Assembly (NCBI GenBank): GCA_903878265.1
Contig: CAIRHD010000541.1
Coordinates: 1-40,306, forward strand
Source: an uncultured Bacteroidales bacterium
GTDB taxonomy: Bacteria; Bacteroidota; Bacteroidia; Bacteroidales; UBA4417
Length of the DNA: 40,306 bases
Direction of reading: 5' to 3'
The notes below the pieces were generated by a model. That model was not told where the DNA came from, did no database searches, and saw only the letters and a program-made list of their open reading frames with translations. The translations under genes were made by a program, and so were the position numbers. This document shows, one piece after another, positions 1-34,668 of the stretch; within the stretch, counting starts at the first letter, position 1; each line of letters opens with the position of its first letter.

Positions 1-917
1 CCAATTTGCCAATCAACAAACCGTATGGGATTGCTGTGCATAAAGGAAAAATCGTGATTTGCGACACATTTACCCATGGCTTGGTTATTATTGATATGAC
101 CTCAAATACTTTTACCCCTTTTATACCAACAGGGAAAGGTGAGTTGAAAATGCCTGTAAATTGTTTCATCGATGACACAGGGTATTTATATGTTGCAGAT
201 TCCGACAGAAAGCAAATTGTTGTTTTCGATGAAAATCACAAATATGTTACCAGTTTTGGGGAAAAAGATAACTTTAAACCGGTGGATGTTTTTGTGAAAG
301 GTGATAAAATATGGGTTACAAACCTCTTAGGCCATCAGGTTCATGTTTACACCAATGATTCGGTATTTGAGCTGCTGAATACTTTTCCCAAAGTAAACAA
401 GGACAATCCAAAAAGTTTATTCTCGCCAACCAGCATTTTTATTACTGATAATCAGGTGTATGTTACCGATTTCGGTGATTTCAAAATAAAAGTTTATTCG
501 CTCGAAGGCGAATTTATCAGGTCGGTAGGCAGTTACGGACAAGGGATCGGACAGTTTTCGCGCCCAAAAGGGATAGCCGTTGACAGGGATTCGAACTTGT
601 ATGTTGTTGATGCCGGATTCGAAAATACCCAAATATTCAGCAGTGAGGGGAAACTGTTGATGTTTTTTGGGGGCAGTTATAAAGGGCCTGGCGATATGTG
701 GTTGCCAGCCAAAGTTACCTTGGATTATGATAACCTGAAGTATTTTGAAAAATTTGTCGATCCAAGTTTCAATTTGAAATACCTCGTGTTTGTATCCAAT
801 CAATTTGGGCCGGATAAAATTTCAATTTATGGCGCTATTGAACCTGCAAAAGCGGGTCAGAAAGTTATTAGACCTCAAAACAATAAAAAAAGAACCACAC
901 TAGGCCCTATGTTTTAG
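1..917 (+). CDS. NHL-repeat beta-propeller protein, 5' truncated by window edge
   Basis: Repeated NHL-like units (KPYGIAVHKGKIVICDTFTHGLVIID, RPKGIAVDRDSNLYVVDAGFENTQIF). The ORF runs to the window edge and the TTG start is probably not the true start; no signal peptide is visible. Confidence 0.8.
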   Translation, partial: NLPINKPYGIAVHKGKIVICDTFTHGLVIIDMTSNTFTPFIPTGKGELKMPVNCFIDDTGYLYVADSDRKQIVVFDENHKYVTSFGEKDNFKPVDVFVKGDKIWVTNLLGHQVHVYTNDSVFELLNTFPKVNKDNPKSLFSPTSIFITDNQVYVTDFGDFKIKVYSLEGEFIRSVGSYGQGIGQFSRPKGIAVDRDSNLYVVDAGFENTQIFSSEGKLLMFFGGSYKGPGDMWLPAKVTLDYDNLKYFEKFVDPSFNLKYLVFVSNQFGPDKISIYGAIEPAKAGQKVIRPQNNKKRTTLGPMF

Positions 918-955
918 CCAATTTCAATGCAACTCAAGTAACCTAGATTACCAAA

Positions 956-1558
956 ATGACTAACAGAAGTGCATTTATAAGACCGAAGGTTTATAAAAGG
1001 ATGCTTCCTTTTTTATCAGTTGTGTGCTTTTTGGTTTACATATCTGGATGCTCGACCGCCAAAAATTATAAAACACTTTCATTTTTATTCGATGGTGTTC
1101 CAAACCCAGCAAGCGAAAATTCTGTGATGGCTGAGGATACACTCTCCCATACAGTTACCGCAGCCGTGGCTCAAGATTTGGTTTTAGCAGATGCGACACC
1201 CAAAATACAGCCCCATCCGCCCTATCACGACAGGCAATGTAGTGCCTGCCACGACCAAAGTACAATGGGCAAGTTGCTTAAACCCCTTCCTGAACTTTGT
1301 TATCATTGCCATGAAGATTTTGGCAAAAAATATAAAGTTTTACATGGCCCAATTGGTGGTGGACAATGCAATATGTGCCATAGTCCACACATGTCGGCCA
1401 ACCAACATTTATTGACACGCACCAATCAGTTACTTTGTCTTTATTGCCATGATTCCAAGGATATTTCGAAAATTGGAACCCATCCTGAAACAAAAGATGC
1501 CGACTGCCTTGCTTGTCACAACCCACACGGTGGGGATGATATAAATTTATTGCGCTAA
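956..1558 (+). CDS. Multiheme c-type cytochrome lipoprotein, doubled-CXXCH type, 5 CXXCH motifs
   Basis: CSACH, CYHCH, CNMCH, CLYCH, CLACH; N-terminal hydrophobic segment ending in lipobox-like ISGC. Confidence 0.9.
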   Translation: MTNRSAFIRPKVYKRMLPFLSVVCFLVYISGCSTAKNYKTLSFLFDGVPNPASENSVMAEDTLSHTVTAAVAQDLVLADATPKIQPHPPYHDRQCSACHDQSTMGKLLKPLPELCYHCHEDFGKKYKVLHGPIGGGQCNMCHSPHMSANQHLLTRTNQLLCLYCHDSKDISKIGTHPETKDADCLACHNPHGGDDINLLR

Positions 1559-1562
1559 GCTT

Positions 1563-3533
1563 ATGTGCCAAAAATTCAAATACAAAGTTTTGATGCCAAT
1601 CTTTTTGGTGTTTTCTTGTAATGCTTTTGCACAATATAGCAACAATTCCTTGTATTTCTGGAAATTACATTCAATTTCGGGAGAAGCCATAATAAATGGA
1701 CATTATCGCGAACAGGAAAGGATTGGTATGGGGATATACGAATACCAGAAGAGTTCGTACCTTTCGGGAGGCATGTTTTTAAAATCCACGAGTTCCATTC
1801 TTCATCAAAATTTTTTAACACTGGATATCGATGCTGGATATATGCCCGAAACAAGCCGTGACAATTATATTTTTATACCCGATCAGGCCGAAGTGCGCAC
1901 CATGAAGAAATTAGGTGGAATAAGTGCTTCGTTTTTCAAAGATAGAACAATTACTCTTAATGTTTTCGGCAACTACGAAGAGCGGTATTTTGCCCGTGAA
2001 AACCTAACGGATGTAAAGGCAACAGATCAATACTTGGGTGGGACAATAAATTATAGCAATAAATTTTTGCCATTGACCCTTAATTTTAAGAGTAAAAAAT
2101 GGAACGAAAAAGAAGTACATTCCGAAAGGAAAATTACACTCGACCAAAAACTATTCGACGCCAGGCTGAACAAATCGTTCACTAAAATTGACAAGAACGA
2201 ATTCCGCTACTCGCACGACGAAAATGCAAATGTGAACTTGTATTCGTACCTGATTGCCAATACAATAGACAACATTGACTTTGTAAGCCACATAGTACCT
2301 GATACAAAGCAGAAATATAGTTTTAACACCATGCTTTCCAACTATAACCAACATGGGAACTTGAATTTAAAACGGTTTCAGGCTACGGAGGCCATCAATA
2401 TACAATTACCTGCTAATTTTGCTTTTTTCGGAAATTATAATTTTTACAATGTTCACCAGCCCTTGAGCGGCTTTACACAAAATAGCGTGAACATTGGCCT
2501 CAATCATAAACTTTTTAGCAGCCTGCAATCAAGGCTCAATTACGACTTCAACAAAATTAACCATACAGCTTATAAGGAATCGAACTGGAAACCGGGCTTT
2601 GACCTTAATTACACCAAAAAAATACCAAAAGGGCAGTTATTGGTTTCGTATAGATTCGACAGATATCACCAGGATTATTATTCAGAGCCTGTTTTGTTAC
2701 ATATTATCAATGAGCAATATGCGTTGTCCGACAATGCAATTGTGTTGTTAAGACTTGCCGACATTGCTCTTCAATCGGTTGTTGTAAAAGACGCAAATGG
2801 AGCTTTGATTTATGAAAATGGGCTTGATTACATACTTCTTGAAAGGGGCAAATACATCGAAATCAGAAGGATACCAGGAGGTTCCATTGCAAACGGGGCA
2901 ACCGTGCTTGTTGATTACACTGCCACACAGCAAGGAGCTTATAAGTACGATGCCAATACACATGTGTTTTCATCGATTGTTTACTTGTTCAAAAATGTGC
3001 TCTCTTTTAATTATCGGTTTTCCACACAGGATTACTCGAATATTGAAAAAACAGAATTTGTAACCTTGAATTTTTTCACTCAAAACCTTGTTGGTTGTCG
3101 CATCGATTTCGATTTTGTTACAGCAGGTGCCGAGTATGATAACTACAAAAGCTCCATACTTCCTTACCGCATGATGAGGTATTATCTGAATTTCCAAAAA
3201 GGCTATGGAAAAAATTTGATGCTAATGCTCAATGGCAACTTACAGGAATATGTAATGCTTGACGAACCCGAACCAAAATACCAGGAATATATGGATATTA
3301 CAGGCAAAGCCAATTATTCCCTTTTGAAACAAACACAGCTCAACCTCGATTTGATGTACCGCAAACAGAAAGGGCGGGGCATCGATCTTGACTTGCTTTC
3401 ATCGAAACTCGAAATTACATCGGCCATGAACCGCCTCTATTTAACATTTGGCTTGGAAGTGTATAGGCGTAACTATGTTGGCGAAACAATCAACTTTAAA
3501 GGGACTTACATCAAAATTATCAGAAAGTTTTAA
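1563..3533 (+). CDS. Outer-membrane beta-barrel (porin-like) protein, candidate partner of the flanking cytochromes
   Basis: Signal peptide (FLVFSCNAFAQ), many alternating amphipathic strands rich in aromatics, terminal Phe (IKIIRKF). Sits between two multiheme cytochrome genes with gaps of a few bp. Confidence 0.75.
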   Translation: MCQKFKYKVLMPIFLVFSCNAFAQYSNNSLYFWKLHSISGEAIINGHYREQERIGMGIYEYQKSSYLSGGMFLKSTSSILHQNFLTLDIDAGYMPETSRDNYIFIPDQAEVRTMKKLGGISASFFKDRTITLNVFGNYEERYFARENLTDVKATDQYLGGTINYSNKFLPLTLNFKSKKWNEKEVHSERKITLDQKLFDARLNKSFTKIDKNEFRYSHDENANVNLYSYLIANTIDNIDFVSHIVPDTKQKYSFNTMLSNYNQHGNLNLKRFQATEAINIQLPANFAFFGNYNFYNVHQPLSGFTQNSVNIGLNHKLFSSLQSRLNYDFNKINHTAYKESNWKPGFDLNYTKKIPKGQLLVSYRFDRYHQDYYSEPVLLHIINEQYALSDNAIVLLRLADIALQSVVVKDANGALIYENGLDYILLERGKYIEIRRIPGGSIANGATVLVDYTATQQGAYKYDANTHVFSSIVYLFKNVLSFNYRFSTQDYSNIEKTEFVTLNFFTQNLVGCRIDFDFVTAGAEYDNYKSSILPYRMMRYYLNFQKGYGKNLMLMLNGNLQEYVMLDEPEPKYQEYMDITGKANYSLLKQTQLNLDLMYRKQKGRGIDLDLLSSKLEITSAMNRLYLTFGLEVYRRNYVGETINFKGTYIKIIRKF

Positions 3534-3535
3534 CC

Positions 3536-4465
3536 ATGGAAAAATCGTTTCTCTTGCTCGCTCTGCTGCCGGTTTTGTTAATAACTGGGTTTCTTGGTAA
3601 CTGGAAGTCAAATGCCAAAGAATCAGCATCTGTAATACCTGCAGATTTTTTAAAAACAGGCGAAAATCCTAAATGCGTTGATTGCCACAGCGATTTGCTG
3701 GAAAGCAAAGTTGTGCATAAACCTGCCTCGGAATCTTGCGAGTCGTGCCATGCCGTCGATATTATCGAGCATACCAAAAATGGCGTCCGCGGATTAAAAC
3801 TCAAAAAAAAAGCCCCTGAATTGTGTTTCGGCTGCCACAAGGATAAAGAAGTACAATTTAGTGTTTTGCGAAATGTACACAAAGCGGTTAATGTTTCTAA
3901 AAGTTGCAACAATTGCCATTCTCCCCATTCGTCCGACGAGAAGAAAATTTTGCAAATGGAGCAAAAACAGTTGTGCCTTAGTTGTCACGATAATGAAGTA
4001 AGTGCCTTAGGCAAAAAAATGGTAAATATCAAAAGACTACTTGAAAACAGTAAATTTATTCATCCACCAGTCGAAAAAGGATGTGTTGTTTGCCATGCTC
4101 CACATGGATCAGAAAACAATTATAATTTAATAAGCTCTTTTCCAACAGGCAATTATGTTCCTGCTGTTAGGGATACTTTTGCCCTTTGCTGGGAATGCCA
4201 CGACAGTGATTTGCTGGAAGTTGAAAAAACCGATGCTGCAACCAATTTCCGAAATGGGGATGAAAACCTACATTTTGTTCATCTAAATGGAAAAAATTCC
4301 AGGTCTTGCGTGATGTGCCATAATGTACATGCATCTGCTAATGAACATCTTATTGAAGATAAAGTGAAGTTTGGCGATTGGAGCCTTCCGATAAAATACA
4401 CTCCATCTGCAATCGGAGGAACTTGTTTTCCTGGCTGTCATGGCACAAAAACTTATACTCGATAA
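3536..4465 (+). CDS. Multiheme c-type cytochrome, 8 CXXCH plus one CX3CH
   Basis: CVDCH, CESCH, CFGCH, CNNCH, CLSCH, CVVCH, CWECH, CVMCH, and C-terminal CFPGCH; N-terminal hydrophobic signal/anchor. Confidence 0.9.
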   Translation: MEKSFLLLALLPVLLITGFLGNWKSNAKESASVIPADFLKTGENPKCVDCHSDLLESKVVHKPASESCESCHAVDIIEHTKNGVRGLKLKKKAPELCFGCHKDKEVQFSVLRNVHKAVNVSKSCNNCHSPHSSDEKKILQMEQKQLCLSCHDNEVSALGKKMVNIKRLLENSKFIHPPVEKGCVVCHAPHGSENNYNLISSFPTGNYVPAVRDTFALCWECHDSDLLEVEKTDAATNFRNGDENLHFVHLNGKNSRSCVMCHNVHASANEHLIEDKVKFGDWSLPIKYTPSAIGGTCFPGCHGTKTYTR

Positions 4466-4468
4466 AAA

Positions 4469-7243
4469 ATGATTGGGTTATCATTGACAACGAATTTCAG
4501 CAAATGTAAATTTAGGGACTATTTTTTTATGTTCCTGATTTTTGCATTTCAAAATGCTTATTGTCAGGGATATAGTGGCAAATTATTGGGCAACCAATAC
4601 GCAGATGTAATAAAGCTGGCAGACGATTATTTAATTCAAGAAAACTATTTAGGGGCATTAAATGAATATGAAAGGGCTTGGGACTTATATCCCAGGCAAA
4701 AATATTCCGAAAAAAAAATAGACCAGATATACCGGACTTTGGCAAATACGCCTTTGCTTAAAACATTGTATGAAAAATCAATAAACCTCGGTGATAGCTG
4801 TTTTATGGCCAACGATTTTAGAAGTGCAGATATTGCATATTTTAATGCACTAAAACTTGACCATTCAGCCCAATATCCTAAAGATCAACTTATAGCTATA
4901 TCAAAACTTTATATAGATCCTCAAAATGAAACACGTTGCAGGGTACTTTTTATCCGTGGCGAAAGAGCCACTATCAGGGAAAAGTATGATAACGCTATTA
5001 ACTTTTACGAACTAGCACTGTTGATGAAACCTGCGGATACCTGGCTTTTGATGAAATTGGATGAAACTACTTCACAAAAAACCAAGTATATCGCAAGTAT
5101 AGATAAGTATTCCAAATGCTTGAATTTTGCTGATATTCTTATAGAACAGAATAAGTGGGACGAAGCCCGTTCCGAGTATGCAAAAGCGGCAGCAATCCAA
5201 CCCAAACAAAATTATCCGCAAGCCAGAATAGTGTTGATAGATCATTTGAAAAAAAATAGCGGCACGAAACTACAATCATATCAAATCCTTATCGCCACAG
5301 CCGATAATTTTTTTAAGCTGGAGGATTATGAAAATGCAGGAAACCAATACCAGGAAGCGGCAGACTTGAAGCCGGGTGAATCGTATCCAAAAAATATGTT
5401 GAAGAAGCTGAAACACCTTTCCTCACAAACCAATGCACAAGTAACCAACTACGATGCGGCAGTTACCAATTCCGATATTCTGAGCCTTGCATCAGATGAA
5501 AAAGCGGCCTTGATCGGTTACCAACGTTGCCTTTTAATCCAGCCTGACGATAATTATGTTAAGTCGAGAATTCGTGAACTTACCAGTAAACATGCAAAGT
5601 TAATCGAGAAAGATGATCCATACAGTTTGGCTATAAATAGAGGCATAAGCTCTATGGAATCAGCTAATTATACTAAGGCATTATCTGAATTCCGCTATGC
5701 TTCAAGAATCAAACCCGGAGAAAAATTGCCAAATGATAAAATACTGGCGATCGATTCGATTCTTGAAAATCAAAAAAACTTGTTGGAACTGAAGACGGCT
5801 ATCAAAAACCCCGTTTCCAAGCCCACTGATAAACAGTTTGAAGCGAAAACTATTGCTGGAAATAGAACTGAAGCCAAGACGATTGAATACCCTCCAAACA
5901 GTTCAACAATTGCAAACAAAACAATCGAAAAAAGCCTAATTGCAAATCAGGAAGAATATGATAAAGCCATAGCATTTGCCGACAAAGCTCTAGATGGGCA
6001 GAATTATGTTGATGCGCTGAAAGGGTATAAAGCAGCAATATCGCTTAAACCCAACGAGAAATACCCACAAGAAAAAATTACTTCTATCAATAGTGTATTG
6101 GGGCAACAAAAGGCTTTGAAGACCAATTACGAAAGGTCATTGGTTTTAGCTGACCGACAGTTCCAAGCTAAACAGTTCGAGGAAGCGTTAATCAACTACC
6201 GGACGGCAAGTAAAAACAATCCTGTTGCAACTTATCCCAAAGAGCAAATTGACAAGATAAACTCCTTGATGGTACAAGAAAATAATATAGAGCAAGGTTA
6301 TGAAAATAAAATTGCTGTTACCGATAAATCCTTTGTGCAAGAGCGAATACTTGCAGCAAACACTTTTAAGAGTGAGACGAAAAAAGCCCAGGAAAACTAC
6401 AATAAAGCTATCAGTACTGCCGAAAAGGCTTTCGCGACCAAGGATTACAAAGCGGCAATCGAAGGGTATCAATCCGCATCAAAGTTAAAGCCTATCGAAA
6501 GCTATCCTAATGAAAGAATTGCGTTTATTAATGAAATGATTTCGACGAATATCAAAAAGATTGATAAACAATATGTTGAGTATATCATCCAGGCCGATGA
6601 GTTTTATCAGAATCAAGAGTTGCTGGTGGCAAAAAAAGCGTATGAACTGGCGTTAGCACTAAAACCAGATGAACGTTATCCGAACGATAGAATTATCGAA
6701 ATCTCCAACTTGCTTATTGCCAAAGCCAAAGCTGAAAAAGAAGAATATGACAATGCAATTTTTGGAGCCAATAAAACATTTCAAGAAAATGACTTAGACC
6801 TCGCAGCGCAACTATATTTAGCTGCCTTTGCCTTACAACCAAAAAATCCATATCCAGGGCAGATGATAGCAAAGATAAGGAAATTGCAAATGGAAAATTC
6901 GGTTGTTGAGGTAACATCCGAAGTGTTTATCTTGAAAAAAGAAACAGAAAAACAATTCTTCTTTGACCCAATTGATTACAGTTTGAGGAAGAGAAACTGC
7001 ATTATAATCAGGGCGCGCACAACGGACAGTCTGCAACCCAAATTGATAGTTAATTATGGCCGTGAAAAAGCAAAAAGCGGCGGTATGGTGCTTAAAAGCA
7101 TAGATTCGCGTTTGTACAACGACTTTGCAATAAATGTCAGCGTACAAGATAAATGGTTTCGTGAAGACAACAACTGGTTGAGCCTCTACGCCGAAAATGG
7201 TGATTTGGAAATTTCGAGCATTAAAATTGCGCAATTGAAATAG
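4469..7243 (+). CDS. Secreted TPR-like repeat protein (about 12 units) with C-terminal beta-rich domain
   Basis: Signal-like FFMFLIFAFQNAYCQG; repeated ADxxFxxxxYxxAxxxYxxAxxLKPxExYPxxKIxxI units; the C-terminus matches that of the 29089-34668 product. Confidence 0.85.
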   Translation: MIGLSLTTNFSKCKFRDYFFMFLIFAFQNAYCQGYSGKLLGNQYADVIKLADDYLIQENYLGALNEYERAWDLYPRQKYSEKKIDQIYRTLANTPLLKTLYEKSINLGDSCFMANDFRSADIAYFNALKLDHSAQYPKDQLIAISKLYIDPQNETRCRVLFIRGERATIREKYDNAINFYELALLMKPADTWLLMKLDETTSQKTKYIASIDKYSKCLNFADILIEQNKWDEARSEYAKAAAIQPKQNYPQARIVLIDHLKKNSGTKLQSYQILIATADNFFKLEDYENAGNQYQEAADLKPGESYPKNMLKKLKHLSSQTNAQVTNYDAAVTNSDILSLASDEKAALIGYQRCLLIQPDDNYVKSRIRELTSKHAKLIEKDDPYSLAINRGISSMESANYTKALSEFRYASRIKPGEKLPNDKILAIDSILENQKNLLELKTAIKNPVSKPTDKQFEAKTIAGNRTEAKTIEYPPNSSTIANKTIEKSLIANQEEYDKAIAFADKALDGQNYVDALKGYKAAISLKPNEKYPQEKITSINSVLGQQKALKTNYERSLVLADRQFQAKQFEEALINYRTASKNNPVATYPKEQIDKINSLMVQENNIEQGYENKIAVTDKSFVQERILAANTFKSETKKAQENYNKAISTAEKAFATKDYKAAIEGYQSASKLKPIESYPNERIAFINEMISTNIKKIDKQYVEYIIQADEFYQNQELLVAKKAYELALALKPDERYPNDRIIEISNLLIAKAKAEKEEYDNAIFGANKTFQENDLDLAAQLYLAAFALQPKNPYPGQMIAKIRKLQMENSVVEVTSEVFILKKETEKQFFFDPIDYSLRKRNCIIIRARTTDSLQPKLIVNYGREKAKSGGMVLKSIDSRLYNDFAINVSVQDKWFREDNNWLSLYAENGDLEISSIKIAQLK

Positions 7244-17283: not shown

Positions 17284-18534
17284 CTATTTTCCATACGTAA
17301 GCAATCTCTGCTCGCCTTCAAGTGCCCTAAGATGAGTAAGATCCTGTGAAAACTCTATGGTTCCCATGTAGTTTTTATCTTTGTCGCGCAGAGGTAAATA
17401 AGTGATGTAAATGAACTTTCCTTGCATTTGTATCCAAAATGGGGCAGCATTTTCTTTGCCACTTTTAAAATCGTTAAGTATTTGATCTACAATGTGCATA
17501 CTGTGTGGAGGATGGCACATGCGCACATCGCGGCCAAGAATTGCCCTATTGCGGTCGAAAATTCGGTGTTGGCCTTGAGTGAAGAATTTTACTTTGTCGT
17601 TTTTATCCACGAAGGTGATATCTACAGGTAACACATTAAGTAACAGTGTCAATTCATTAATAGTAAAACTGCCACTTGGCAAACGTACCATTCCACCCGA
17701 AAACTGGTTTTGCAGGTCATTAATCGTTGTTTCTACATTTTCGGGAAACCAATCTACAGTTGGGTCGAAAAGACAATATCCAATTTCGTTTGTTTGCTGC
17801 AAAATATCATACCATTCCTGATCGTTCAGTTCATCCATGGTCATCGGAAAAAGAATTTCTTCCTCCTTCATAATCATGTCGGTTATAGCTTTGGAAGCTG
17901 GCATTAGATCTAAATGGATGTTTTCATTTAATTCGTTAGCCTTTGTTCCTTTACTATTCATAAGAGTTTGAATAGCATTTTTCAGAAAAGCACGGGTTTC
18001 ATCATGCTTGCCCCACATTACGGTTGGTGGCCCTGTAATACCTTTTGCTTCGAGGAAAGGGAAAAGCAGGTTTTCCTTGCGTTTGTAGTGCTTATCCACA
18101 TCGGTAAGAGCATTAAAAATTGCAAGCATCCTAATAACAATTTCATCCTCAGAATTGTTACTATTTAGTTCAGCCTTTTTCTTTAGGTCGATATAAATAC
18201 TGTTGAGTTGCAAAACTAATTTTTCGAGTTCACGGTTTTCTTTCTTAAAAGTATCGATTGGGTGGCCTGCAGGAATTGCTTTTGCATCGGAATGGTCGAT
18301 ATTCCCTTCAAGAACCATTGCATGTAGGTCGCAAAGTTTCAGAACTTCCTCTACTGGAAGACCTTCTTTGATAAGTTCCTGCTCAACCTCCACCACTTCG
18401 TCATAAGGGATGCCTTTGAGCAGTTCGGTCAGTTGTTTTTTAATTGCATCAGGAGCATCTCCATTATGCAATTGCAATATCATGTGCTTGAGCAGTTCTT
18501 TTCTGCTTTTGGAATTGTTTATTAATTCACTCAT
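17284..18534 (-). CDS. DUF438 - hemerythrin-like - PAS domain protein
   Basis: DUF438-like N-terminus (LLKGIPYDEVVEVEQELIKEGLPVEEVLKLCDLHAMVLEG), HHE-like His/Glu helices (DKHYKRKENLLFPFLEAKG, KHDETRAFL, MKEEEILFPM), C-terminal PAS-like VDKNDKVKFFTQGQHRIFDRNRAILGRDVRMCHPPHS. Confidence 0.85.
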   Translation of the reverse strand: MSELINNSKSRKELLKHMILQLHNGDAPDAIKKQLTELLKGIPYDEVVEVEQELIKEGLPVEEVLKLCDLHAMVLEGNIDHSDAKAIPAGHPIDTFKKENRELEKLVLQLNSIYIDLKKKAELNSNNSEDEIVIRMLAIFNALTDVDKHYKRKENLLFPFLEAKGITGPPTVMWGKHDETRAFLKNAIQTLMNSKGTKANELNENIHLDLMPASKAITDMIMKEEEILFPMTMDELNDQEWYDILQQTNEIGYCLFDPTVDWFPENVETTINDLQNQFSGGMVRLPSGSFTINELTLLLNVLPVDITFVDKNDKVKFFTQGQHRIFDRNRAILGRDVRMCHPPHSMHIVDQILNDFKSGKENAAPFWIQMQGKFIYITYLPLRDKDKNYMGTIEFSQDLTHLRALEGEQRLLTYGK

Positions 18535-29088: not shown

Positions 29089-32000
29089 CTACTCATCCCC
29101 AGCAGCAATCTGTACTTTAGTAATTTCAACATCGCCGGTTTCCACATAAATACTGATCCAGTTGTTGTCTTCGCGATACCATTTATCCTGAACACTGATT
29201 CGGATCATGTAATCGCTTATCACAGTTTTGTCGAGGCTGCGCAAAACGATTCCGCCATTTTTCTGTGAATCTTTTCCATAGTTAAGGTAAACTTTTGGTG
29301 AAGATTTGCCTGTAGATCGCGCCTTTAAAAGTATGTAATTATTTTTGCGCAATCGCGGTTCAATCGACGAAAAAGTGAATTTCTTTTCGTTGCCTTCGGT
29401 AATCTGAAACGCTTGTGAATACAAATCCTGTATGGCATGGTCAGAAATGTATTTTCTGATTTTATTTATCTGAATTTCAGGATATGTGTCGGAAGTGTTG
29501 ATTTTTGATGCGGCTTCGTATGCATCAATGGCTTGATCGAAAATCTTGGTGTTGTATAATCTATCAGCTTCGCCTAAAGCTTTGGCATATTCAGCTTTGC
29601 GCGTGAGTTCAATCTCCTCCACTATCTTGTTGATTTCGGTAAGCCGCTGTTTTGGATACGTTTCGTCGGGTTTAATACCAGCTGCCTTTGTAAATGCAGA
29701 CTTTGCCCCCGAATAATCCTTGCTGTTGAACAACGCATCCCCTTCCGAAATATAGGAAGCGAACATTTTTCCCATTTCCTCTTTCTGTGCTAACAGCAAG
29801 GTGTTTATTTCTGCGATTTTTGATTTAGGAAATACTTCCAGAGGTTTTATTTCGAGAGCGTTTTGATAGGCATTTAAAGCTTCCATCAGATTTTTCGAAG
29901 TGAGCTTACTGTCGCCAAGGGAAATGGCTTTGTTATAATTGTCGTCGATTGCTTTAAGTTCAGCTTTAATTGTCGAAATTCGTTCTATCGGATATTTTTC
30001 GGCTGGTTTTAGAAGTGAAGCTTCTTCATACGATTTTATTGCGGCATCCAGTTTTTTTGATGCATACAATTCGGTGGCAGCGTTTATGGCTTTTGAGAAG
30101 TTTTCATCCTTCAATTTCAAATCAGCCATTATCCCATCAATTTCGGCAATTTTATCTTTCGGCAATTTTTCCGATGGTTTTAATGTTGAAGCGTTCACAA
30201 AAAGAGTTTTTGCTTCATCGTATTTTACTGCTTTAAACTGTGTTTCGGCATCTGTTATAATTTTCTGATAATCATCATCCAGCTTTTTTTGGTCGGCCAA
30301 CATTTTATTAATGGCAACAATTTGATCTTGTGGATACTTTTCAGTGGCCTTGATAGTAGCCGCACGTTGATATGGCTCCATGGCTTCACGATACTTTTGC
30401 TCCTTGAAAAAATTATCGGCCAAAGTAATCGCATCTTGATAATTGGTATTATCGGTATTCAGTTTAGTAATAATAGCCTGAACTTCAGTTATTTTAGTAA
30501 TTGGATACTGCTCGCTTGGTTTTGAAAGGTTTGCATTTTTAAAAGCTGTGAGAGCATTATCGTAATCTTTCGCAAGCAGTTTCTTGTCGCCGTCGGCCAC
30601 AGCTTTATCGTAAGCAATTTGTTTTTCATTGATAGCAGCTATCTCTTTTTCAGCTTCAGCAATTTTTTCTGTAGGGTATTTCTCCAGTGGTTTCATAGTG
30701 AGTGCTTTGCGATATTCTGCAATAGCTTCAACGAATTTTTGTGCTTCAAAAAACTGATCGGCCGAGGTAATTACGTTCAGGAAACTATCATCAAGTATTT
30801 TCTGCTGTTTAATCAAATTATCAATTTTCCCAATCTGTGTTTTGGGATAGGATTCTGTTGGTTTGATTGAAGATGCAACAGTATAGGAAGCCGATGCTTC
30901 GGTATATTTTTTTTCACCAAAAAAAACATCGCCTTCGCTGATTGCTTTGGAATAATCCTGATCTTTATTCAACAAATCGGCAAGGATTCCGTCAATTTCG
31001 GCAACTTTTGCCTTTGGGAGGTTTTCCGCTGGTTTTAGTGCGCTTGCATTGGAATACAGTATTTTAGCTTCGTTGTATTTCGAATTTTTAAACTCAAGAT
31101 CGGCATCTGTTATTGCTTTCTGATAATCGTCGTCGAGTTTTTTCTGTTCGGCAAGCAGTTGGTTTACTTTGGTGATTTGTTCCTGCGTATATTTTTCATT
31201 TGGTTTTATCCCTGAAGCACGTTGATATGGTTCGAGAGATTCACCGTATTTTTGACTGCCAAAAAGTTTATCTGCTTGGGCAATGGCTTCATCGTAACGC
31301 TGTCTTTCTGCTTTGTCCTTGTCAAGGATTGCCTGAACCTCAGCAATTTTCTGTTTAGGATAGGTTTCGGTAGGTTTTAGTAAGCTCGCACTTTTAAACG
31401 ATGCCAGTGAATTTGCAAAATCCTTGTCCAACAGCAATTTATCACCATCGGCAACAGCTTTATTGTACGATTCCTGCAAAGTTTTCAAATCTGCTATCAG
31501 CTTTTCCGATTCAGCAATTTTATCTGCCGGATATTTCTCTGATGGTTTCAAAACCAAGGCTTTGCGATAATCAGCAATAGCTTCATCATAACTTTTGGAA
31601 GCTAATAGTTTGTCTGCCGAAGCAACAGTGGTTTGATAGTCGGCTTCTAACTTTTTCTGTTCAGCAATAAGCAAAGTTATTTTTTCGACTTGCACTTTTG
31701 GGTAAGCTTCGGCAGGTTTAATTTTTAGTGCATTGTTGTAGCTTAGGATTGCTTCGCTGTATTTGCTTTCTGCAAACAAAGCATCCCCAGTGCTGATATG
31801 GTTGGCAAAACTTTGTTCCTTGTTTTGCAAATCGGCTAGAATTCCATCAATTTCAACAATTTTTACCTTTGGGAGGTTTTCCGCTGGTTTTAGCGCACTT
31901 GCATTGGAATACAGGATTTTAGCTTCGTTGTATTTCGCATTATTAAACTCAAGATCAGCATCTGCTATTGCTTTCTGATAATCGTCGTCGAGTTTTTTCT

Positions 32001-34668
32001 GATCGGTAAGCAGTTGATTTACTTTGGTGATTTGCTCTTGTGGATATTTTTCGTTTGGTTTTATCCCAAAAGCACGCTGGTATGGTTCGAGAGATTCACC
32101 GTATTTTTGACTGCCAAAAAGCTTATCTGCTTGGGCAATAGCTTCATTGTAACGCTGTCCTTCTGCTTTGTCCTTGTCAAGGATTGCCTGAACCTCAGCA
32201 ATTTTCTGCTTTGGATAGGTTTCGGTAGGTTTTAGCAGGCTTGCACTTTCGAACGATGCCAGAGAATTTGCAAAATCCTGGTCCAACAGCAATTTATCTC
32301 CATCGGCAACAGCTTTATTGTATGATTCCTGCAAAGTTTTCAAATCTGCAATAAGTTTTTCCGATTCAGCAATTTTATCAGCCGGATATTTCTCTGATGG
32401 TTTCAAAGCCAAGGCTTTGCGATAATCAGCTATAGCTTCATCATAACTTTTGGAAGCTAATAGTTTGTCGGCAGAAGCAACAGCAGTTTGATAGTCGGCT
32501 TCTGCCTTTTTCTGTTCAGTGATAAGGCCGTTTATTTTCTCAATCTGTGTTTTGGGATAGGATTCGCTTGGTTTAAAAGTTTTTGCTCTATTATAAGATG
32601 CAATTGCCTCGGCATACTTCAGGTTGTTAAAGTTATTATCGCCTTCGGTAATCGATTGTGTATAGCTTTCATCCGCCGAACGCATTTCGCCAAGTATTTT
32701 ATTGATTTTGGCAATCTGCTCCTGAGGGTATTTTTCATTTTTCTTAATCCCACTTGCTTCGGTATATGACACAAGAGCTTGGTCGTACCCTTTTGCAGCA
32801 AGCGATTTGTCTGCTGAAGCGATTGCTGTAGTGTACTTTCCATTTAATTTTTGCAGTTCATCAATCGCTGCTTGCACTTCAGTGATTTTTTCTTGCGGAT
32901 ATTGTTCGGTTGGTTTAATTTTTAAAGCTTCCTGAAAAGAAGTTAGTGAAAGCGTATAATTACCTGCTGCAAAAGCTTTGTCGCCATTGGTTATTGATTG
33001 TGTGTAATTATTGGCATCTGCTGTTGCTTTAGCCAGGATTTTGTTTATTTCATCGGTTTTATCCTTTGGATATTTTTCAGTCGGTTTAATTTTAAGTGCC
33101 TGATTGTATGCAGCCAAGGCATCCTCATATTTTTGGATGGCAAAGGATTTATCCGCGGTTTCAATGGCTGAAGTATAATTCTCATCTTTCGATTTTAAAG
33201 CGGTCAGCTGGTTTTGCGCTTCGGCTATTTTTTGCTGAGGGTAGGTTTCTTCTGGTTTAATTTCCTGAGCTTTAGTATATTCAATAATGGATTCGGCAAA
33301 TTTGTTTTGTTTGAAAAGCACATCGCCATCAGCTAAGGACTTTTTGTAAATATCGTCAAGGGCTTTTTGCTGCGTAATTAAAGCAGTTATTACACCAATT
33401 TTATCAGAAGGATATTTTTCATTTGGTAAGAGTGATAGTGCGTTCTTGAAATGGGATAATGCGGCATCGTATTTTTTTCCTTCAAAAGCCTGATCACCGT
33501 TCTTTATGGCAATATCATACGCATCCTTGCGGGAATTGCGTTCTCCAATAAGTTTCTCAATTTCTGCGATCTTTGTTTTGGGGTAAGTTTCGGTTGCTTT
33601 TATCGCCGATGCTGATTTGAAACCAATCAAAGCCGCATCGTAATCACTTGATTTTAAAAGGTTTTCTGCACTTGCCAGGGCTGCATCATATTTTTCCTGT
33701 TCCGATAGCAATTGCGATTCCCCCGATTTTGTTTTATCGAGCATTTCTTTTGGATAACGTGCCTCAGGTTTTACTTTGAGAGCTTCTTGATATTTCAGAC
33801 GGGCATTGGCAAAATCGCGGTTAATATAAAACTGGTCGGCAATTTCTATAGCCTTGTCATAGTTATCCTGAAGCGATTTCTTGTCGTTGGCTAGCTTTTC
33901 TATTTCCTGAATTTTTTCTTTTGCATGTTGGTTTTCAGGAGTAATTGCAAGTGCTTTCTGGTATTCTACAAGTGCTTCGGTACGTTTTCCGGCTGCTAAA
34001 AGTTTGTCGGCACCAACAAGTATTTTAACCACATGTTCTCCTTTGAGCTTATAATCGGCTTGTTGTTTGCGAGTATTTGTAATTTTATCCTTGACGCTTT
34101 TTGTACTTGGTTTTACAGCTAAGGCGGTTTCGTAATACATCACGGCTTTATCAAAGTCATTGGAAGCTAATGCTTTATCTCCATTGGAAATAGCATCAGA
34201 AAAATACGCAGCATCCGTGGGATCAATATAAAGCGCACTTATTTGTGCCAGGCGGTCTTTTGGGAATTGCGAAGAAGGGTCAATCCCTAAGGCTTTCTGG
34301 TATTCGGTTTTTGCTTGTGGATACTCTTTTCTGTTAAAATAGCTTTCAGCTTTTATAATTATATCTTCGAAAAGTTGTGCTTTTTTATCGGGCTGGGCAT
34401 CAAGTATTTCATTTATTTCAGCAATTTTCCCTGAAGCATATTTCAGCTCAGGTTTTATCTGTCGCGCTTTTTCGTAAAGTTGTAAGGCAGCAGCATAATC
34501 TTTGGCCGCCCAAGCCTGATCTGCCTGCTGAATAACAGGGTTATAGGTAGCAGCATTGGTTGGGTTTTGAGCTTGGCAAGGATTGGTTGTGAAGGTTGAA
34601 AAGGCTATCCCGATAAAAGCAAAAAGTATATATATTGACAGGCCATTCCTGAAATTGTGGTTCTTCAT
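29089..34668 (-). CDS. Giant secreted TPR-like repeat protein (1859 aa, about 30 units of about 57 aa) with C-terminal beta-rich domain
   Basis: Signal-like N-terminus; units ADKxFxxxxYxxAxxxYxxAxxLKPxExYPxxKIxEIxxLL counted about 30 times; C-terminus homologous to that of 4469-7243. Confidence 0.9.
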   Translation of the reverse strand: MKNHNFRNGLSIYILFAFIGIAFSTFTTNPCQAQNPTNAATYNPVIQQADQAWAAKDYAAALQLYEKARQIKPELKYASGKIAEINEILDAQPDKKAQLFEDIIIKAESYFNRKEYPQAKTEYQKALGIDPSSQFPKDRLAQISALYIDPTDAAYFSDAISNGDKALASNDFDKAVMYYETALAVKPSTKSVKDKITNTRKQQADYKLKGEHVVKILVGADKLLAAGKRTEALVEYQKALAITPENQHAKEKIQEIEKLANDKKSLQDNYDKAIEIADQFYINRDFANARLKYQEALKVKPEARYPKEMLDKTKSGESQLLSEQEKYDAALASAENLLKSSDYDAALIGFKSASAIKATETYPKTKIAEIEKLIGERNSRKDAYDIAIKNGDQAFEGKKYDAALSHFKNALSLLPNEKYPSDKIGVITALITQQKALDDIYKKSLADGDVLFKQNKFAESIIEYTKAQEIKPEETYPQQKIAEAQNQLTALKSKDENYTSAIETADKSFAIQKYEDALAAYNQALKIKPTEKYPKDKTDEINKILAKATADANNYTQSITNGDKAFAAGNYTLSLTSFQEALKIKPTEQYPQEKITEVQAAIDELQKLNGKYTTAIASADKSLAAKGYDQALVSYTEASGIKKNEKYPQEQIAKINKILGEMRSADESYTQSITEGDNNFNNLKYAEAIASYNRAKTFKPSESYPKTQIEKINGLITEQKKAEADYQTAVASADKLLASKSYDEAIADYRKALALKPSEKYPADKIAESEKLIADLKTLQESYNKAVADGDKLLLDQDFANSLASFESASLLKPTETYPKQKIAEVQAILDKDKAEGQRYNEAIAQADKLFGSQKYGESLEPYQRAFGIKPNEKYPQEQITKVNQLLTDQKKLDDDYQKAIADADLEFNNAKYNEAKILYSNASALKPAENLPKVKIVEIDGILADLQNKEQSFANHISTGDALFAESKYSEAILSYNNALKIKPAEAYPKVQVEKITLLIAEQKKLEADYQTTVASADKLLASKSYDEAIADYRKALVLKPSEKYPADKIAESEKLIADLKTLQESYNKAVADGDKLLLDKDFANSLASFKSASLLKPTETYPKQKIAEVQAILDKDKAERQRYDEAIAQADKLFGSQKYGESLEPYQRASGIKPNEKYTQEQITKVNQLLAEQKKLDDDYQKAITDADLEFKNSKYNEAKILYSNASALKPAENLPKAKVAEIDGILADLLNKDQDYSKAISEGDVFFGEKKYTEASASYTVASSIKPTESYPKTQIGKIDNLIKQQKILDDSFLNVITSADQFFEAQKFVEAIAEYRKALTMKPLEKYPTEKIAEAEKEIAAINEKQIAYDKAVADGDKKLLAKDYDNALTAFKNANLSKPSEQYPITKITEVQAIITKLNTDNTNYQDAITLADNFFKEQKYREAMEPYQRAATIKATEKYPQDQIVAINKMLADQKKLDDDYQKIITDAETQFKAVKYDEAKTLFVNASTLKPSEKLPKDKIAEIDGIMADLKLKDENFSKAINAATELYASKKLDAAIKSYEEASLLKPAEKYPIERISTIKAELKAIDDNYNKAISLGDSKLTSKNLMEALNAYQNALEIKPLEVFPKSKIAEINTLLLAQKEEMGKMFASYISEGDALFNSKDYSGAKSAFTKAAGIKPDETYPKQRLTEINKIVEEIELTRKAEYAKALGEADRLYNTKIFDQAIDAYEAASKINTSDTYPEIQINKIRKYISDHAIQDLYSQAFQITEGNEKKFTFSSIEPRLRKNNYILLKARSTGKSSPKVYLNYGKDSQKNGGIVLRSLDKTVISDYMIRISVQDKWYREDNNWISIYVETGDVEITKVQIAAGDE
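30115..32660 (-). repeat. In-gene super-repeat: three tandem blocks of five TPR-like units, period 855 bp
   Basis: Sequence ttcgagagattcaccgtatttttgactgcc occurs at 31231 and 32086 (offset 855 bp); the corresponding third block is more diverged. Confidence 0.85.

Follow-up and report, generated by a model that had tools for sequence, protein, structure and literature searches.

A multiheme cytochrome and outer-membrane barrel operon from an uncultured Bacteroidales bacterium, probably the 3′ part of a cluster for an OmcE-type cytochrome nanowire

The window analyzed here is the whole 40,306-base contig CAIRHD010000541.1 (C541) from the 629-contig genome assembly of an uncultured Bacteroidales bacterium; because it spans the entire contig, position 1 marks an end of the assembly and not the start of an operon. 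Its left end carries five open reading frames, all on the forward strand and separated by gaps of 38, 4, 2 and 3 bp, which probably represent the 3′ part of a gene cluster whose products assemble an OmcE-type cytochrome nanowire and supply it with electrons. The five genes are:

3–917, + strand: NHL beta-propeller protein, C-terminal 304 residues, 5′-truncated by the contig end (Pfam NHL, 3.4e-13).
956–1558, + strand: CytA, a five-heme lipoprotein cytochrome of 200 residues with an N-terminal LSFxFDGVP motif (Paired_CXXCH, 4.6e-23).
1563–3533, + strand: BAR, an outer-membrane beta-barrel of 656 residues by structure model and fold search, with a conserved insert at about residues 389–459.
3536–4465, + strand: CytB, an exported nine-heme cytochrome of 309 residues, probable in-barrel or periplasmic wire (Paired_CXXCH, 2.8e-33).
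4469–7243, + strand: exported TPR-repeat protein with a conserved C-terminal region (Pfam TPR, 1.5e-15), a genus-specific addition.

An initial annotation had described five same-strand genes 2–38 bp apart, and all reading frames were recovered at these positions; hidden Markov model searches returned the families it had proposed, with matches to Pfam NHL, to Paired_CXXCH in both cytochromes, and to TPR. The lipobox assigned to the first cytochrome (YISGC) proved to be conserved in relatives, and the second cytochrome, entered as an 8/9-heme protein, is indeed multiheme, with the count now settled as nine (eight CXXCH and one CX3CH). CytA has five CXXCH sites, and all 14 heme sites of the two proteins are invariant across six aligned sequences from relatives; residue shuffles of CytA and CytB (2000 each) averaged 0.05 CXXCH and never exceeded 2. 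A further carrier, L077, encodes a CytB with as many as 26 heme sites. The profile of CytA matches chain A of the structure 6r2q (4.4e-13), and the same chain is the best match of the CytB profile (1.9e-12). Chains A and B of 6r2q we take to be MtrA and MtrB; chain A is labelled cystathionine beta-synthase in the PDB name table, and the title of the Foldseek entry reads 'Structure of the Mtr complex'. MtrA (6r2q_A, 7.2e-4) was also the sole significant fold match of the CytB structure model, evidence that is rated as weak because the predicted local distance difference test (pLDDT) of this model is low (62.8). On its model, the nine-heme CytB looks like a putative in-barrel wire of the MtrA type.

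That the 656-residue protein is a transmembrane barrel, as had been claimed, is supported by its AlphaFold2 model (42 sequences, pLDDT 87.6, predicted template modelling score 0.70), a large barrel with about 28–30 long strands (our count) and an insert near residues 389–459, and by Foldseek searches with this model, which returned outer-membrane barrels. Among the matches listed, the top template modelling score (TM-score), 0.43, belongs to MtrB (6r2q_B) at 10% identity, and the FimD usher is also found among the PDB structure matches. At the level of sequence, BAR has no Pfam match and no NCBIfam barrel match, its 42-sequence profile finds no barrel in the PDB, and a test for homology to the MtrB/PioB family gave no relationship. 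A phage tail-tube match (3.7e-4, below the cut-off) was disregarded; it lies within the insert. The two cytochrome genes adjoin the BAR gene with gaps of 4 and 2 bp, an arrangement conserved across phyla, and by analogy it is well supported that BAR and its cytochromes would work like a porin-cytochrome conduit, one that on the sequence comparisons made stands outside the MtrB family.

A match to BAR is present in 7 of 99 genomes, including the source genome (G000, G001, G004, G006, G011, G054 and G077). In the other six, the order of genes, as far as the contigs reach, is NHL (a second copy), 12-heme cytochrome, histidine kinase, sigma-54 regulator, tetraheme cytochrome, NHL lipoprotein, CytA, BAR and CytB. 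The order is kept in relatives, beyond the genus and across phyla. The leftward extension suggested in the initial annotation ends at position 1 of this contig, and contigs of relatives show an OmcE-like gene, regulators and the 12-heme gene upstream. The Geobacter-type porin-cytochrome conduit that had been proposed stands in part: the barrel model and the conserved order agree with it, but the unit in relatives also has an OmcE-type nanowire cytochrome directly upstream. Two of the upstream features are, in locus L011:

L011:14755–16200, − strand: histidine kinase carrying a CXXCH site, with a sigma-54 regulator as its partner in the cluster; also present in L019 of the source genome.
L011:16222–17901, − strand: 12-heme protein of about 559 residues; in the source genome on contig C144 (L019), C-terminal part only.

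Over its whole length, the tetraheme protein of the six relatives aligns with 7tfs, the OmcE filament subunit of Geobacter (1.8e-27); another cytochrome of known structure, 9yuq, scores nearly as well (1.7e-26), and identity to the two is 39–40%. The four heme sites and four further histidines are invariant; by its length and its retained heme ligands, the relatives' protein ranks as a tetraheme homologue of the OmcE nanowire type. It is followed directly by the NHL gene, whose orthologues are 56–82% identical and, where the N-terminus is intact, encode a lipoprotein with a lipobox. A second OmcE domain is found in the 12-heme protein, residues 1–205 of which make up a complete one (1.5e-38 to 7tfs), while the tail carries eight heme sites at near-constant spacing, the final one CX3CH. 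Since a wire-subunit domain joined to a tail is the form expected of an end-piece, this fusion protein is likely, as judged from its sequence, to be a filament end-piece that joins the wire to the membrane or to an acceptor. In the source genome, the last 311 residues of the 12-heme protein are encoded on contig C144, together with the kinase and the regulator, after which the contig ends. Because C144 ends after the regulator and C541 starts within the NHL gene, the tetraheme gene would sit in the gap between them, which is estimated at about 1.9 kb from the coordinates of G011. From this synteny we infer that the OmcE-type gene is present in the source genome; the match obtained there in the search for it was an unrelated CXXCH stretch.

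A wider genome scan, anchored on the tetraheme alignment alone, gave 80 loci, and the 48 with at least 6 kb downstream were used for counting. An NHL gene lies within 8 kb downstream in 46 of these, directly adjacent in 35; within the same distance BAR is found in 43, CytB in 34 and CytA in 32, and the 12-heme OmcE-fusion protein accompanies 40 of the 48 loci in many phyla. The record titles of carriers include Bacteroidota, Ignavibacteria, Calditrichota, Chlorobiota, KSB1, Gammaproteobacteria, Desulfobulbaceae, Kiritimatiellota, Opitutales, Gemmatimonadota and others, and one carrier (L110) is a named strain, Aestuariivivens marinum, not a metagenome-assembled genome. Outside the Bacteroidota–Calditrichota group, BAR scores fall to 28–152 bits, and because these scores are low, homology there leans also on gene position. 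The BAR tree clusters by phylum, with 14 changes compared to 32.3 in shuffles and with some mixing. Among 395 evenly drawn Bacteroidota genomes BAR occurred in two, the source genome included; the system is widespread yet rare.

The source genome also encodes proteins that could supply such a system. A ResB/CcsA cytochrome-maturation fusion of about 1050 residues, encoded within the cluster, was detected in six of seven carriers, compared to one of the eight non-carriers tested (p=0.01). Its gene precedes the second NHL gene and then the 12-heme gene in G006 and G011; G077 has it downstream of the operon. In the source genome, contigs C121 and C42 (L025, L142) overlap by 141 identical bases and together encode an exported protein, up to 1708 residues long, that has 20 heme sites and a PKD-like domain; the ResB/CcsA fusion follows. 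Candidates at the inner membrane are two proteins of about 500 residues with NapC/NrfH-like domains; furthermore, contig C14 (L144:5051–7534, − strand) holds adjacent genes for a tetraheme cytochrome, an Fe-S protein and an NrfD-type membrane protein, a candidate quinol-oxidizing complex. None of the circumstances under which the initial annotation would have given up its conduit therefore applies: BAR models as a barrel, the gene order is conserved, and maturation proteins as well as NapC/NrfH-like and NrfD-type proteins are encoded in the genome.

With respect to regulation, the CXXCH site of the histidine kinase suggests a c-type heme redox sensor, as far as its sequence goes, and its partner is an NtrC-type sigma-54 activator. 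A sigma-54-like element, TGGCAT-N5-TTG, precedes the tetraheme gene in six of six close relatives (L011–L016; TGGTAT in G077), in most of them about 55–60 bases before the gene. Over all loci it was found in 13 of 70, compared to 0.39 expected, a count that is partly post hoc because the relaxed pattern was picked after viewing the alignment. The strict sigma-54 consensus occurred at 4 of 73 sites, with zero in close relatives, and generic scans for promoters and terminators turned up no signal beyond that of shuffles.

The interpretation that fits the operon best is a nanowire with its outer-membrane base station. Electrons from the quinol pool would reach the periplasm via the NapC/NrfH-like or NrfD-type proteins and pass to CytB, which may be seated in BAR as MtrA is in MtrB; from CytB they would proceed to the lipoprotein CytA and leave the cell through the OmcE-type filament. 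The lipidated NHL propeller would probably have an assembly or anchoring role at the barrel or at the filament base, the 12-heme OmcE-fusion protein would likely link the wire to the membrane or to an acceptor, and the heme-binding kinase with its sigma-54 regulator would probably switch the cluster on. The TPR protein would be a later, genus-specific accessory. The more specific assignment, in which BAR, CytA, CytB and the NHL lipoprotein form a port that anchors, secretes and charges the OmcE-type wire, with the 12-heme protein as its dedicated end-piece, is put forward tentatively.

Several points weigh against the nanowire interpretation. The tetraheme gene itself was not found in the source assembly by a targeted search, with a gap at the expected place, and a tetraheme protein homologous to a wire cytochrome does not necessarily polymerize. 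The likeness of BAR to MtrB stays under the usual TM-score of 0.5, at 10% identity and with no sequence match to accompany it, and the CytB model is weak, as its pLDDT shows. In its −12 half, the sigma-54-like element is without the usual C. Function is read throughout from sequence, position and models, and polymerization, conduction and localization of the cluster members are predicted on the same basis.

One alternative, which overlaps with the nanowire port and differs from it on the main job of BAR, holds that NHL and BAR mainly form a channel through which the tetraheme wire is secreted and assembled, in the manner of the osc (omcS-companion) operon of Geobacter, and that the cytochromes cap or charge the filament. 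This is somewhat doubtful: CytB resembles MtrA and the top TM-score of BAR is to MtrB, both parts of electron conduits. The osc chaperone is of the prolyl isomerase type, and no prolyl isomerase gene was found among the cluster proteins scanned. On the other hand, the FimD usher is among the PDB matches of BAR, a secretion-linked eight-gene cluster has been described (PMC12977616), and the osc genes are reported to include OscH for folding, OscE–G for secretion and OscD for morphology (PMC13194489).

It is unlikely that the unit is a self-standing Mtr/Pcc-like conduit to soluble or mineral acceptors, with no nanowire and with the tetraheme neighbor as a monomeric surface cytochrome. The adjacency of CytA, BAR and CytB, their likeness to MtrA and MtrB, and the missing tetraheme gene of the source assembly would fit this, as would the novel unclassified conduits described in humic-lake Bacteroidetes (PMC6344600). 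What speaks against it is the OmcE homologue, which is kept at full length with all hemes and the four further histidines, and which precedes the same genes in long-diverged phyla, where a second gene with an OmcE domain is also found.

The initial annotation had further regarded the TPR protein as a possible lineage-specific scaffold or biogenesis factor of the conduit. Within the genus, all five carriers do have the gene after CytB, but it is absent from every carrier examined outside the genus, and among the 48 scanned loci the one that has it is G006, a genus member. Its sole relative found in the genome lies in the same window:

29089–34668, − strand: TPR paralogue of 1859 residues, a genus-wide family outside the conduit, 34–38% identical to the operon TPR protein.

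This identity extends over the N- and C-terminal parts, the C-terminal region is common to both proteins, and most members of the genus have the 1859-residue family, whether or not they carry the operon. The TPR gene is a genus-level addition and not a core part; an essential scaffold or biogenesis role is improbable. Elsewhere in the window, positions 17284–18534 (− strand) encode a protein with DUF438, hemerythrin and PAS domains, likely an oxygen or redox sensor.

That the conduit runs inward, taking electrons from Fe(II), a metal or a partner cell, is very unlikely: porin-cytochrome-type conduits have been reported in iron oxidizers (PMC5566968), and such systems can reportedly be bidirectional (PMC8258643), but no feature of the cluster indicates direction, and no search was aimed at genes for iron oxidation or carbon fixation.

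The anchoring of nanowires in the outer membrane and the entry of electrons into them have been listed as unresolved (PMC12307469). In this context the cluster names testable parts, namely a wire protein of the OmcE type, a single barrel, a pair of conduit cytochromes, a lipoprotein with a propeller fold and an end-piece that contains an OmcE domain, in an order largely kept across many phyla, and it places candidate nanowire respiration in Bacteroidales, a group with little study of extracellular electron transfer.

The nearest reports are PMC6344600, PMC8258643, PMC13194489 and PMC12977616, and priority for the gene order is uncertain. Unclassified conduits of Bacteroidetes (PMC6344600) and the seven-gene Bacteroidetes_1 cluster (PMC8258643) are alike in phylum, multiheme cytochromes and a predicted barrel; in the accessible parts of these reports, neither NHL nor an OmcE wire nor the present gene order is named. 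The Geobacter Pcc systems (OmbB-OmaB-OmcB, Ext), compared by description only, share the cytochromes that flank a barrel gene but differ in gene order and heme numbers. MtrCAB (6r2q) provides the top TM-score of BAR, the sole fold match of CytB, and profile matches of both CytA and CytB; in contrast to it, BAR has no MtrB sequence match, no MtrC or OmcA was seen, CytA is a five-heme lipoprotein, and an NHL lipoprotein is added. The osc operon likewise combines a nanowire cytochrome with companions for folding, secretion and morphology, as reported (PMC13194489); here the wire is of the OmcE and not the OmcS type, no prolyl isomerase was seen, and the companions are compared by description only. 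The 26 heme sites of the L077 CytB equal the number given for GSU2495 (PMC12977616). Closest to the wire itself is the OmcE nanowire of Geobacter sulfurreducens (7tfs; also 9yuq), which the tetraheme protein of relatives resembles in its full length, its heme sites and the four further histidines, while the relatives' gene, which would encode a candidate wire protein, precedes those for NHL, CytA, BAR and CytB.

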